Shown here piece after piece: positions 5,426 through 25,589 of a stretch of DNA of 40,325 bases. Within the stretch, counting starts at the first letter, position 1, and the number at the start of each line of letters is the position of its first letter. The translations under genes and the position numbers were made by a program. The notes below the pieces were generated by a model that did not search any database, had not been told where the DNA came from, and saw nothing but the letters and a program-made list of their open reading frames with translations. Origin of the DNA: a bacterium (GTDB lineage: Bacteria; Cyanobacteriota; Sericytochromatia; S15B-MN24; VGJW01); the NCBI GenBank assembly GCA_021781555.1, contig JAJXWQ010000030.1, forward strand, positions 1 to 40,325, given 5' to 3'.

Positions 5426-5473
5426 GCTGAAGTCGCGACCCTCCCGCGCCGCTCTCTGCGTCCTGGAGTCTGA

Positions 5474-5518
5474 ACGGGTCCCTCTGCGCGGTCGCTGCGC
5501 TGCGCCACCGGGCCCCGT
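5474..5518 (-). repeat. 45-bp palindromic repeat, copy a
   Basis: Reverse-oriented copy of the dispersed element (ACGGG arm, CTCTGCGCGGTCGCTGCG core, CCCGT arm). It lies between rlmH and argS, 3' of rlmH. Compared with the other copies it has a T-to-G change in the inner stem, so its inner pairing is weaker. Confidence 0.85.
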
Positions 5519-5583
5519 TTGACTCCCGAGGCCCGCTCGCTTCTGGCGCGAGGGTTCGAGACCTCTGCCCGTGCGATCGCGTG

Positions 5584-12600: not shown

Positions 12601-12609
12601 TTCGATAGG

Positions 12610-12630
12610 CGCTGCGCAACCGGTCCCCGT
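12610..12630 (-). repeat. Half copy of the palindromic repeat, copy b
   Basis: Only the right half (CGCTGCGCAACCGGTCCCCGT) of a reverse-oriented element is present, starting nine bases after the tldD stop. It is joined to copy c by the linker TTTGACTGCAG, so it is probably a decayed tandem unit. Confidence 0.75.
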
Positions 12631-12645
12631 TTGACTGCAGTTTGA

Positions 12646-12690
12646 CCGGGTCCCTCTGCGCGGTCGCTACGCTGCGCAACCGGTCCCCGT
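12646..12690 (-). repeat. 45-bp palindromic repeat, copy c
   Basis: Full reverse-oriented copy between convergent tldD and the transglycosylase gene. The loop of its inner hairpin carries a T where other copies have C or A, as expected for an unpaired position. Confidence 0.85.
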
Positions 12691-17544: not shown

Positions 17545-17882
17545 CCTTCACCTCGTTCGACAGGGATCCATGGTAGCAGACTCGAACGACTCCCGAAGGG
17601 GCGTGCACTCCCTAGACCTTTTGCAGTTTGAACGGGGCCCTCTGCGCGGTCGCTTCGCTGCGCAACCGGGCCCCGTTTGACTCCTCGGGCCCGATCCATT
17701 CAAACCGGGCGCACTCTAGCGAGCCAGGCAGCAACGCAGGTGCTCGCCTTGCAGGGCGAGCCCGGACCGGGAAACGCCCCCATCTCGAACCACCGTCGGC
17801 AATGCTGCGGCAAGAAGTGCAACGAGCGCCGTGTACCCGCGGCCGACCACGCGCTGGCGATCGGCCGGGGGGTGGGTCCGAG
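17545..17882. other. 338-base intergenic region with one repeat copy
   Basis: Between the start of the unknown gene and the stop of the NHL lipoprotein gene. It holds repeat copy d at 17632-17676. The remaining stretch, about 17690-17882, shows no convincing gene, promoter or hairpin. Confidence 0.6.
17632..17676 (-). repeat. 45-bp palindromic repeat, copy d
   Basis: Full reverse-oriented copy with perfectly complementary outer arms (ACGGGGCCC and GGGCCCCGT). It is flanked by GTTTGA on both sides, a flank shared by most copies. It lies about 200 bases downstream of the NHL lipoprotein gene. Confidence 0.85.
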
Positions 17883-20227: not shown

Positions 20228-20233
20228 ATCCTA
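20228..20233 (-). promoter_or_regulatory. Candidate leaderless -10 element for LpoB-like gene
   Basis: TAGGAT on the minus strand, followed by seven bases and ATG 20220. No Shine-Dalgarno is present in between. Confidence 0.45.
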
Positions 20234-20322
20234 GACTGTTTTCATCGCGAAGGCATGCGAGGGGCTCGAGAGGGCTGGTTGCTAGAGCGATTTTCGGTTG
20301 AGTTGATATGGCAACGGGGTCA

Positions 20323-20369
20323 AAATGGGACCGGTTGCGCAGCGAAGCGACCGCGCAGAGGGACCATTT
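20323..20369 (+). repeat. Divergent palindromic repeat, copy e
   Basis: Forward-oriented copy 16 bases after the stop of the Pro/Ala-rich gene. The core GGTTGCGCAGCGAAGCGACC is conserved, but the arms are AAATGG and CCATTT instead of ACGGG and CCCGT. The arms remain complementary. Confidence 0.8.
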
Positions 20370-20384
20370 CAAGCTGAAAACGGT

Positions 20385-21341
20385 TTAGTGCGCGTCGGCC
20401 AGGGCCTTGAGCACGGGCGGCGAGGTCGTGCCGCTACGGGCCAGACGGTGGAGAAGCTCGCTGCGGAAGACGTGCGGTTCGTAAAGGGGCGACTCGATCG
20501 TCCAGACCCGGCCCTTGCGCTCGAGGTGGAACTCGACGGTCTGGTCGGGCGGCATCGGTTCGAGGTGGTCCGGCGTCAAGGTTCCGATGACCGAGAAGCG
20601 GACTTCCACGTGGGCAAAGTTGCCAAAACTGTCGGCGTCGCCCACGGAGAACGACCGGATGACGGTGGTCTCGTCCCAGCCGGGCTCGTTTGACCAGGCG
20701 GTGAGCTTGTCGATATCCGGATGCAGCCCCGCGGAGCTGGCGAGGCGGGCGCCCTCGGCGTCCAGCGTGCAGAACAGGTCGACGACCTCCCAGGGTGAGA
20801 GCGTCTCCTGCTCGCGTTGGCGCAAGTGGCGCCGGGGGGTTGGCGGGTGCGGGTGGTGGTCGGTTTCGGGGGCGGTCCGGGGCGGCGGACTGCGATGCGC
20901 CTGGGGGCCAAGATGGCCGGGAAGCGGGGCCCTGCGCTCTCCCGAGCGCTGGCGAGCATGGCCTGCCCCGGGGCTAGCCGATGCGGCCGGTCCGGGCGAT
21001 CGGGAGCTGGCCGGAGCAGGGAGGCCGCCGGGGTGTCCGGGCCCGTTCACGCCGGGAGTCGGATGGCCGACCGAAGCTGGCGTTGCGCTGGCGCTCGGAG
21101 CCACGGGGCCGGCTTGGCCCGCAGCGGCTACGGCGCCGCGGACTTGCAGCCGCTCGGGCTGAACGGAGCGAGTGGCGCCGCCTCGGGCCACACTGGCCAC
21201 CGACGCACTCGCCGCCGCAGGTGCCAGAGGCACGGGGCTCGCCGCTACGGCCCCGGATCCTGGCGCTGCCAGACAGGGTCCGGCGATCCCGCTCGTCCCC
21301 GAGAGGATCGCCGTTGCGATCGCCAGAACCCGGGTCGTCAT
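20385..21341 (-). CDS. Pro/Ala-rich exported protein of unknown function
   Basis: A 318-residue protein. It begins with a signal peptide (MTTRVLAIATAILSG, likely cut after CLAA near residue 26), followed by about 140 residues of low-complexity Ala/Pro/Ser/His sequence with no fold. The C-terminal domain (from about residue 175, LSPWEVVDLFCTLDAEG) is compact and resembles an NTF2- or TPR-like module: FAHVEVRFSVIG and VEFHLERKGRVWTIESPLY alternate strands. It starts five bases after the ilvE stop with AGGAG overlapping that stop, so it is translationally coupled to ilvE. Why an export protein follows ilvE is unknown. Confidence 0.7.
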   Translation of the reverse strand: MTTRVLAIATAILSGTSGIAGPCLAAPGSGAVAASPVPLAPAAASASVASVARGGATRSVQPERLQVRGAVAAAGQAGPVAPSASATPASVGHPTPGVNGPGHPGGLPAPASSRSPGPAASASPGAGHARQRSGERRAPLPGHLGPQAHRSPPPRTAPETDHHPHPPTPRRHLRQREQETLSPWEVVDLFCTLDAEGARLASSAGLHPDIDKLTAWSNEPGWDETTVIRSFSVGDADSFGNFAHVEVRFSVIGTLTPDHLEPMPPDQTVEFHLERKGRVWTIESPLYEPHVFRSELLHRLARSGTTSPPVLKALADAH

Positions 21342-24425: not shown

Positions 24426-25379
24426 ATGCCGGGTGTGTTCCAAGCCTCCGGTCTCATGGATGATCGCCTTTCAGATCTAGCGGTCGAGCGGGATACCCTG
24501 CTCGCAAGGCTCGGGGCTGCAGAGCGCCTGATCGAGGAGCAGCGGGTCGAGCTCGTGCGGCGGCGTGTCGAGTCCGCCGACCTCGAGACGCAGCTGTTCG
24601 ACAACCTTCGCGCCCTCGAGCGTCTGGAGGACGAACAGGCCGCTCGGGTTCGCAAGCTGGACCGGGCCCACAACGAGTTCGTGAACATCGTCTCGCACGA
24701 GCTTCGAACCCCGATGACCAGTATCCTCGGATACGCGGAATTCCTCGAAGACGAGCTCATCGCGCGCTCGGAGCAGGAGCTCCGGCGCCACGTCGGTCAA
24801 ATCCTCGCGAGCACGCGCCGGCTGGAACGGCTGGTGAACGACCTGCTCGACTACGCTCGCCTGGAAGCGGGCAACTTCCGCCTCGAACTCGAGAGTGCGG
24901 ATCTCAAGATCAAGATCCAGGAGGCCGTCGAGAGTCTCCGCCCGCAGGCGCTGGACAAGGCGCTGGAGCTGACCCTGTCGCTCCCGGATGCGAGCCTGCA
25001 GCTGGTCATGGATCCCGGGCGCATCGAGCAGGCCCTCTTCAATCTGGTGGGCAACGCGATCAAGTTCACCCCTCCCAGCGGCAGCATCTGGATTTTGGCT
25101 TCCCTGATCGATGGCCGGGTCCAGGTCGAGGTACGAGATTCGGGCCCCGGTTTTTCCCGGGAGGGGGCCGAGGAGCTCTTCGTCAAATTCGTCCAGGGGG
25201 AGGCTGGCTCGGCCAAGCCCCGCAGCGGCTTGGGGCTGGGCCTCTCCATCGCCAAGGCGATCGTCGAGGCCCACGGCGGGAACATCGGTCTCGACAGCGA
25301 GCCCGGCTTCGGCAGCCGGTTCTGGTTCACGCTGCCGCTCCCGGTCGAGGTCGGGCTTCAGCCTCCGCTGGTCAGCTAG
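24426..25379 (+). CDS. Soluble sensor histidine kinase
   Basis: A 317-residue cytoplasmic kinase without membrane segments. Residues of about 12-85 form a coiled coil (Glu/Arg/Leu heptads), replacing a sensor domain. The HisKA domain follows with the phospho-acceptor His91 in VSHELRTP, then the HATPase domain with the N box NLVGNAIKF (206-214), G1 DSGPGF (238-243) and G2 GLGLGL (268-273). Input is probably through partner proteins. No response regulator gene is adjacent, so it is an orphan here. The start may be ATG 24426, GTG 24435 (better spacing to AGGAA) or ATG 24456. It converges on ruvA across the tandem repeat array. Confidence 0.9.
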   Translation: MPGVFQASGLMDDRLSDLAVERDTLLARLGAAERLIEEQRVELVRRRVESADLETQLFDNLRALERLEDEQAARVRKLDRAHNEFVNIVSHELRTPMTSILGYAEFLEDELIARSEQELRRHVGQILASTRRLERLVNDLLDYARLEAGNFRLELESADLKIKIQEAVESLRPQALDKALELTLSLPDASLQLVMDPGRIEQALFNLVGNAIKFTPPSGSIWILASLIDGRVQVEVRDSGPGFSREGAEELFVKFVQGEAGSAKPRSGLGLGLSIAKAIVEAHGGNIGLDSEPGFGSRFWFTLPLPVEVGLQPPLVS

Positions 25380-25424: not shown

Positions 25425-25589
25425 ACGGGGCCCGGTTGCGCAGCGCAGCGACCGCGCAGAGGGACCCGTCAAACTGAGAAAGAAACGGGGCCCGGTTGCG
25501 CAGCGCAGCGACCGCGCAGAGGGCCCCGTCAAACTGAGAAAGAAACGGGGCCCGGTTGCGCAGCGCAGCGACCGCGCAGAGGGACCCGT
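25425..25589 (+). repeat. Tandem array of three palindromic repeats, copies f-h
   Basis: Three forward units of 45 bp at 25425-25469, 25485-25529 and 25545-25589 repeat with an exact 60-base period. The two 15-base linkers are identical (CAAACTGAGAAAGAA). The units differ at one base in the right arm (GGGACCCGT or GGGCCCCGT). The inner stem is GGTTGC (25434-25439) with GCGACC (25448-25453). The array fills the gap between the convergent kinase and ruvA genes. Confidence 0.92.

Follow-up and report, generated by a model that had tools for sequence, protein, structure and literature searches.

Among the small repeats closest to the one studied here, RUP of Streptococcus pneumoniae has a length of 107 bp, occurs in 108 copies and has been ascribed to IS630-Spn1 (excerpt of PMC2229807). 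According to the same excerpt, RUP, Correia/NEMIS and ERIC measure about 100-200 bp, possess 5'-TA-3' ends, are associated with a target duplication and form a stem-loop when single-stranded. For ISY100, insertion at TA with duplication of TA is described in an excerpt of PMC2170065, which cites a paper by Tenzen and Ohtsubo (1991) whose title refers to the CTAG preference of IS630. GTAG and CGTC tags beside REP hairpins are reported in a passage of PMC3733652, and GNA loops closed by at least two G-C pairs are stated to form very stable DNA mini-hairpins with any base N (extract of PMC4686876). The repeat presented here was found in a stretch of 40,325 nucleotides (contig JAJXWQ010000030.1), referred to as the window. 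It has a TA-bounded body and a central hairpin, the tip of which reads GC-GNA-GC. Besides the host genome (G000, a draft of 3,818,365 bases), the analysis included a sister genome (G001) and a genome from another genus of the same family (G004).

Results

Copy e and the other copies in the window

The stretch from 20323 to 20369, termed copy e, is composed of AAATGGGACC, the core and GGACCATTT, its core being the same as in the other copies. The inner 21 bases of the core have seven exact matches in the window, compared to 0.08 expected. The parts of the copy e hairpin and the positions of further copies are:

20323-20328, plus strand: left arm of the copy e hairpin, AAATGG
20333-20360, plus strand: conserved 28-base core of copy e, GGTTGCGCAGCGNAGCGACCGCGCAGAG
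20342-20348, plus strand: GC-GNA-GC tip of copy e, with A as the variable loop base at 20345
20364-20369, plus strand: right arm of the copy e hairpin, CCATTT, complementary to the left arm
5482-5509, minus strand: core of another copy, with one mismatch
12654-12681, minus strand: core of another copy, with a truncated tandem partner at about 12609-12636
17615-17716, minus strand: complete copy of the main type with a 102-bp body, TA at 17613-17614 and 17717-17718
25434-25581, plus strand: tandem array of three cores with 60-bp spacing

The initial annotation had pointed out that copy e carries AAATGG and CCATTT where other copies carry ACGGG and CCCGT, that the two changed arms still pair around an unchanged core, and that the loop base varies. 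All of this was borne out. Six further copies in the window have a full core; all share ACGGG on the left, and five of them have CCCGT on the right, the sole exception being CCCGG in the copy at 12654-12681; that both arms of copy e are altered and complementary while the core is unchanged can be read directly in the sequence. Two pairs of copy e are changed on both sides relative to the common arms (G-C to T-A and C-G to A-T), and two pairs closer to the core are mismatched (A.G and G.A). Since each pair has a chance of roughly one third of staying paired and two inner pairs are mismatched, copy e taken by itself carries little weight as evidence. Nor does its predicted fold stand out. As RNA, 22 (plus strand) and 7 (minus strand) of 200 shuffled sequences were predicted to fold at least equally well, and as DNA 15 (plus) and 3 (minus) of 200 were at least as good. 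A stable predicted fold (z -4.2) was obtained for the copy at 5464-5530. A search of the window with the Rfam models gave no match at gathering score.

The loop base of the seven window copies is C, T, A, A, C, C and C, and in 224 copies of the host genome it is A in 123, C in 64, T in 36 and G in one. The four bases of the GC...GC stem are among the most conserved of the core, only one of 728 cells being changed in 182 copies, and the loop G and loop A were changed in 5 and 7 of these 182 copies, respectively. The stability of GNA tips as DNA hints at a DNA rather than an RNA fold. The near absence of G at the variable loop position lies outside the mini-hairpin rule and may reflect few founders.

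An element of about 102 bp and its subfamilies

With up to three mismatches allowed, the 28-base core was detected at 464 places in the host draft genome, while the reversed control gave none. From 1,259,179 bases of this genome that were read, 224 copies with at most four core mismatches were obtained. The first 20 stretches were mostly picked for known copies, and those that followed for their contig number or because they contained e copies, which makes the 224 copies a non-random sample. In G001, copies were gathered from core matches and from BLAST matches of the window. On C9, C15, C16, C18, C23 and C24 of the host, copies were found no more than about 130 bases from the start of the contig. 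From this position it can be inferred that the repeat probably broke the assembly and that the true copy number may be higher.

The extent of the element was determined for the main type; identity among 45 of its copies extends from 51 bases to the left of the core to 27 bases to its right, where it drops. Complete main-type copies were chosen by a pattern requiring TA at both ends (n = 61, one contig-start artefact excluded), and in 58 of them the body comprises 102 bp. The bases outside the TA dinucleotides, which were free in the selection pattern, conform to YTA...TAR in 59 and to CTA...TAG in 41 of the 61 copies. A body of 101 bp was found in all eleven e-type copies in which both ends had been read. 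Ten of these eleven have Y in front of the left TA; the right end is TA in ten copies and CA in one.

Altogether, 13 e-related copies were read, namely ten with AAATGG/CCATTT including copy e, one variant (C113:5024) with the arms GTGG/CCAC, and two hybrids with mismatched arms. One hybrid (C6:31003) joins a main left half to an e right half, the other (C134:8121) an e left half to a main-like right half. Copy e shares a single inherited arm type with nine other copies and does not represent an independent event. Alignment with the e-related copies and the TA bounds delimited the complete element as follows:

20283-20284: left TA of copy e, in the context CTA
20283-20301, plus strand: left terminal repeat TAGAGCGATTTTCGGTTGA, including TA
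20285-20385, plus strand: complete element of subfamily e with a 101-bp body, 20323-20369 being its central hairpin
20369-20387, minus strand: right terminal repeat TAAACCGTTTTCAGCTTGA, including TA, by eye an imperfect inverse of the left repeat
20386-20387: right TA of copy e, in the context TAG, within the TAA stop (20385-20387, minus strand) of a 318-aa frame at 20385-21341

The terminal inverted repeats are imperfect, span approximately 19-23 bp in a by-eye comparison and are clearer in a second element family of G001. In the host genome, the left repeat TAGAGCGATTTTCGGTTGA occurs at 12 places with up to two mismatches. The second family of G001 (C243, C407, C435, C71, C97 and C389) is likewise bounded by TA, has a length of about 130 bp and an e-like left end. 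Its end TAGACCGACTTTCGGTTGA is the same as TAGAGCGATTTTCGGTTGA at 17 of 19 bases, its interior is different, and a miniature on C363 consists of hardly more than the two ends. Close to copy e, at about 20231-20250 of the window, the stretch CCTAGACTGTTTTCATCG resembles the reversed e right end and is mostly common to G001; it may be what is left of an older element lying immediately upstream of copy e.

Many copies are organized in arrays. Neighbours on the same strand within 160 bp were recorded for 101 of the 224 copies, a share that is partly inflated because copy-rich stretches had been read first, and neighbours on the opposite strand within this distance for none. The tandem arrays, located at 25434-25581 of the window, on C14, C19, C9 and C44 of the host genome and elsewhere, yielded 58 spacings, of which 31 measure 58-63 bp and 13 measure 104 bp.

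Target sites and stop codons

The joined flanks of 12 isolated host copies were used as queries against G001. The site of C2:37587 is empty there, with flanks that are 86% and 91% identical over 250 bases each, and the filled and empty sites differ by the element and one extra TA only. G001 reads CTGA at this position; in the host, CTA precedes the element and TAA follows it. This is the one clean two-sided empty site of the 12 queried. Five further sites (C18:15992, C33:11070, C35:4854, C18:17874 and C62:8778) have one readable boundary with TA in G001; C1:9176 was blurred, the boundary of C15:33946 was unreadable and four sites gave no useful result. At the position of copy e, G001 contains other element-like debris, and the aligned sequence at the right junction likewise reads TTTAG. 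A 4-bp YTAR duplication as the rule was also considered and rejected: in 45 main copies, G follows the left TA in 96% and C precedes the right TA in 98%, and the outer bases vary.

CTAG is approximately six-fold rarer in the host genome than its base composition predicts (492 versus 2977 in 978 kb, element junctions included). The frequent CTA...TAG borders of the main-type copies thus reveal a preference for this tetranucleotide despite its rarity. The junctions are also connected with the ends of genes. Of 46 complete copies, 33 have on one side a TA with which the stop codon of an open frame (200 codons or longer) begins; at the CTAG sites used as a control, this applies to 168 of 397, and the remaining two frames give 13 and 5 of 46. 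In the window, the minus-strand frame of 318 amino acids at 20385-21341 terminates in the right junction of copy e, and the left junction of the three-core array is the TAG stop (25377-25379) of a histidine kinase frame at 24426-25379. Since both ends place G or A after TA, an insertion into a TAG or TAA stop re-forms the stop, so that the encoded protein need not be extended when the element is placed at the end of a gene.

The right end of the element is variable. In the ten e copies with the same arms, eight changes fall into the last three body positions (20383-20385 in the window) and seven into the other 98. Among isolated main copies, the position two bases ahead of the right TA is occupied by C or T (39% minority), and the neighbouring bases are invariant. 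The three bases preceding both TAs agree in 3 of 11 e copies, compared to 0.55 expected (16 of 2000 permutations), while no clear excess was seen in isolated main copies (5 of 40 versus 3.59; 1247 of 5000 permutations). Variation of this kind is not predicted by a strict TA-only model. It is possible that a longer duplication arose in some events or that bases were carried along from the donor site.

Pairing of the arms in three genomes

To the initial annotation, the arm changes had suggested that selection preserves the folded structure, as RNA or as cruciform DNA, and arm mutations that break pairing as often as they keep it had been named as an argument to the contrary. Copies lacking both arms were dropped (3 of 224 in the host, 1 of 23 in G001). 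Across nine pairs of the remaining 221 host copies, changes on both sides left 36 cells paired and 9 unpaired, and a further 224 cells were changed on one side, 39 of the latter being G-T; the usual G.A pair (pair 4) was left out of the double-change counts. With 224 one-sided against 36 paired changes, the resident copies of the host largely behave as that argument describes. In addition, 20 of the 36 paired cells belong to the ten e copies. When distinct arm pairs of the host were permuted at the five outer pairs, the observed pairing was reached in 402 of 20000 permutations (p ~0.02), and without subfamily e in 1128 of 20000 (~0.06). All five outer Watson-Crick pairs are present in 158 of 221 copies.

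A different picture emerged from G001, the copies of which are few and more diverged than those of the host. In 18 copies with at most five core mismatches, 67 of 90 cells at the five outer pairs are Watson-Crick. The permutation mean was 51.2, none of 20000 permutations was as high as 67, and partners slid by one position gave at most 39. This test leaves out 4 of 22 copies with more than five core mismatches. With these four copies included, 77 of 110 cells are paired (2 of 20000 permutations), and 20 of 28 double-changed cells are Watson-Crick, compared to 0 to 21% in the slid-partner controls. The permutation test ignores the relatedness among copies, while the slid-partner control keeps it.

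In G004, the same core is enclosed by quite different arms. Six copies possess both arms, and four of these are well paired: in two, GACGCC and GGCGTC enclose an exact core, and in the other two a change on both sides has turned the innermost pair from C-G to T-A. The remaining two of the six contain right-side inserts and are partially or poorly paired. The copies of this genome have no TA-bounded body; the hairpins occur in short arrays. At C204:821, C204:7544 and C270:11, a G-rich stretch separates the core from the right arm and could form a second hairpin.

The proposal that folding is kept by selection is consequently upheld by the arms of G001 and G004 and is not borne out in its original form by the host, where one-sided changes dominate, the e copies share one inherited arm type and the two hybrids are mismatched; in either case RNA and DNA are alike possible, and templated correction of a palindrome would produce traces of a similar kind. 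We conclude that pairing has been kept in the element lineages that spread, and not in every resident copy.

Search for a transposase, distribution and host

The only DDE_3 match in the host draft is a frame of 392 amino acids at C164:12099, belonging to an IS630-type element (L094, ~611-2130) with GTACCTCTGCACAGAGG repeats and CTAG at both ends. This element was rejected as the mobiliser, its terminal repeats GTACCTCTGCACAGAGG being unlike the ends of the repeat studied here. The PF13340 profile, which we take to stand for the IS5/IS427 type, had no match in G000, G001 or G003. In G002, it matched two adjacent pieces just over the cut-off, one of them with a stop, and in G004 one sequence below the cut-off. 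Thus, within the DDE_3, PF13340 and Y1_Tnp families, no transposase with matching ends was found in the host. Inward-facing pairs of element ends at a distance of 0.3-3.5 kb were detected 34 times in 1.26 of 3.82 Mb, and in 15 of these pairs at least one end is without a core.

At up to two mismatches, the core is carried by 3 of the 386 genomes searched in the phylum, and at up to three by 4 of 59 relatives, the host genome being included in both counts. In a genome collection, it was present on at least two contigs, both probably from G001. Viral contigs contained no exact core match, and copy e had no match in the plasmid and phage collections; the repeat of G004 gave one weak plasmid match covering 38%. 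The EF-Ts protein encoded on C204 of G004 is 77-78% identical to those of G000-G002 and 43-58% identical to those of the photosynthetic genomes tried, a likeness which indicates that this contig is probably genuine and not a contamination. Photo_RC was detected in 20 of 59 genomes, all of them outside the host class, and in none of 18 within it, the host included. The host, which has a G+C content of 67%, appears to belong to a non-photosynthetic class of Cyanobacteriota, which on the basis of these data is probably Sericytochromatia.

Discussion

The repeat is dispersed in hundreds of copies, its complete copies are bounded by TA, mostly in the context CTAG, and one empty site differs from its filled counterpart by one TA. 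It is probably a non-autonomous, MITE-like transposable element of about 102 bp. The ends would be recognised by a transposase acting in trans and duplicating TA, in the manner of IS630/Tc1-mariner enzymes. Folding of the hairpin, either as single-stranded or as cruciform DNA, would be needed, or at least reproduced, whenever the element is copied. The 28-base core is highly conserved and is closed by arms which stay complementary while their sequence differs between subfamilies and genera. Resident copies would drift afterwards and lose pairing. Copy e is a member of one successful subfamily. The recurrence of the e left end on another TA-bounded family of G001 agrees with this reading. Against it speak the failure to find a transposase with matching ends among the families searched, the imperfect terminal repeats, the variable right end, the single clean empty site, the weak covariation in the host and the G004 hairpins, which have no TA-bounded body.

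It is conceivable that the paired arm changes have another origin. Closely spaced inverted arms are a classic substrate for template switching at replication, by which an imperfect palindrome may be corrected after its own second arm without any selection for folding. The two hybrids that switch subfamily inside the core would match such events. Templated correction, though, predicts that single mismatches are repaired, and the G.A mismatch of the common type is retained in 102 of 179 copies, while 63 of 221 copies are short of at least one of the five outer pairs. As the source of the arm changes, it is rather unlikely.

We also regard it as doubtful, and advance it only as a speculation, that the core is a DNA shape recognised by a protein of this bacterial family, i.e. 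a GC-GNA-GC hairpin which tolerates any complementary arms and is loaded into TA-bounded elements in one genus and into tandem arrays in the other, making the repeat a hybrid of MITE and REP. If so, the reader might be a Y1 protein with an altered HUH motif, and the variable bases of the right end would be a trace of joining, such as carry-over from the donor site, rather than of decay.

A REP element whose hairpin is read as single-stranded DNA and mobilised by an enzyme of the RAYT type (Y1, HUH), as in REPINs, was weighed seriously because a Y1 protein is present. Y1_Tnp proteins are encoded by G000 (one), G001 (one), G002 (three) and G004 (one) and were not detected in G003, which has no core. 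A small palindromic repeat with a conserved hairpin, hundreds of copies and variable bases at one end would suit such an enzyme, and compensatory changes are known from REPIN hairpins (excerpt of PMC3116915). On the other hand, tags are scarce near the hairpin foot of the 224 copies (GTAG in 1 on the left and 2 on the right, CGTC in 16), the left foot being GTCAAA in 164 of them. The core is missing from the 3.3 kb surrounding the Y1 gene in each of G000, G001 and G004; near the host gene, there is a doubtful match with six mismatches at a distance of 2.6 kb and the nearest real copy is about 5 kb away. Six genomes outside the family possess Y1_Tnp and lack the core. Y1 transposases are expected to carry an H-x-H (HUH) motif, whereas the proteins of G000 (C155:45260), G001 (C70:3180) and one of G002 (C417:725) have Q-x-H, with the tyrosine region present. 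Y1 enzymes are not known to duplicate TA, so that the duplication at the element sites fits poorly. Mobilisation by a RAYT is for these reasons quite improbable. The small Q-x-H protein, present in three members of this bacterial family, is possibly a transposase that has been domesticated.

Relatedness among the copies might by itself have produced the covariation of the arms, with no structural constraint, and the host signal does nearly vanish when subfamily e is omitted. This is nevertheless very improbable, since slid partners, which retain the relatedness, pair at no more than 39 of 90 cells in G001 against 67 of 90 for the true ones, and since several distinct, well-paired arm types exist in G000, G001 and G004. 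Hardly tenable is a functional RNA or a transcription terminator at gene ends that is selected for RNA folding, because the stable fold predicted for some copies such as 5464-5530 and the frequent location at stop codons are outweighed by the missing Rfam match, the unremarkable fold of copy e, the lack of a clear strand bias (27 of 60 copies adjoin the stop of a 200-codon frame with their left end and 22 of 62 with their right end), the lack of a T run beyond the copy e stem as judged by eye and the decay of pairing in resident copies.

The repeat provides a worked case for the interpretation of covariation in repeat families: the covariation is strong between element lineages and nearly absent among resident copies. 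It is also a heavily amplified TA-bounded element in an apparently non-photosynthetic relative of the cyanobacteria, which leaves a stop behind when it lands in a stop codon. The conserved core with exchangeable arms in two genera makes the reading of folded DNA by transposition directly testable.

Among the open-access papers listed on MITEs, IS630, CTAG and stop codons, compensatory changes in palindromic repeats and Sericytochromatia, no title or abstract opening describes this element family. MITEs with TA ends and a length near 100 bp are already known from the excerpt of PMC2229807, and hairpins of mobile repeats with compensatory changes from that of PMC3116915; it is the conserved hairpin core that is unusual. 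With the d(GCGNAGC) mini-hairpins of the PMC4686876 extract, the core shares the tip GC-GNA-GC. Those hairpins accept any N, whereas here G was found in one of 224 copies, in a fold that is predicted. The REP and REPIN sequences mobilised by RAYTs, as presented in the parts of PMC3116915 and PMC3733652 cited here, are similar in their abundant hairpins, in the compensatory changes and in the Y1 gene of core-bearing genomes. Unlike them, the element has a TA duplication and is without a regular GTAG/CGTC tag or opposite-strand neighbours within 160 bp. In its TA target with duplication and its CTAG preference, it resembles the IS630/Tc1-mariner elements ISY100 and IS630 (excerpt of PMC2170065), but it contains no internal transposase gene and has variable bases at the right end. 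Small size, TA ends with a duplication and a stem-loop are what it has in common with RUP, Correia/NEMIS and ERIC as these are portrayed in the PMC2229807 excerpt. What separates it from that portrayal of RUP, Correia and ERIC is that the hairpin core is the very part shared with another genus and that many copies are arranged in same-strand arrays.
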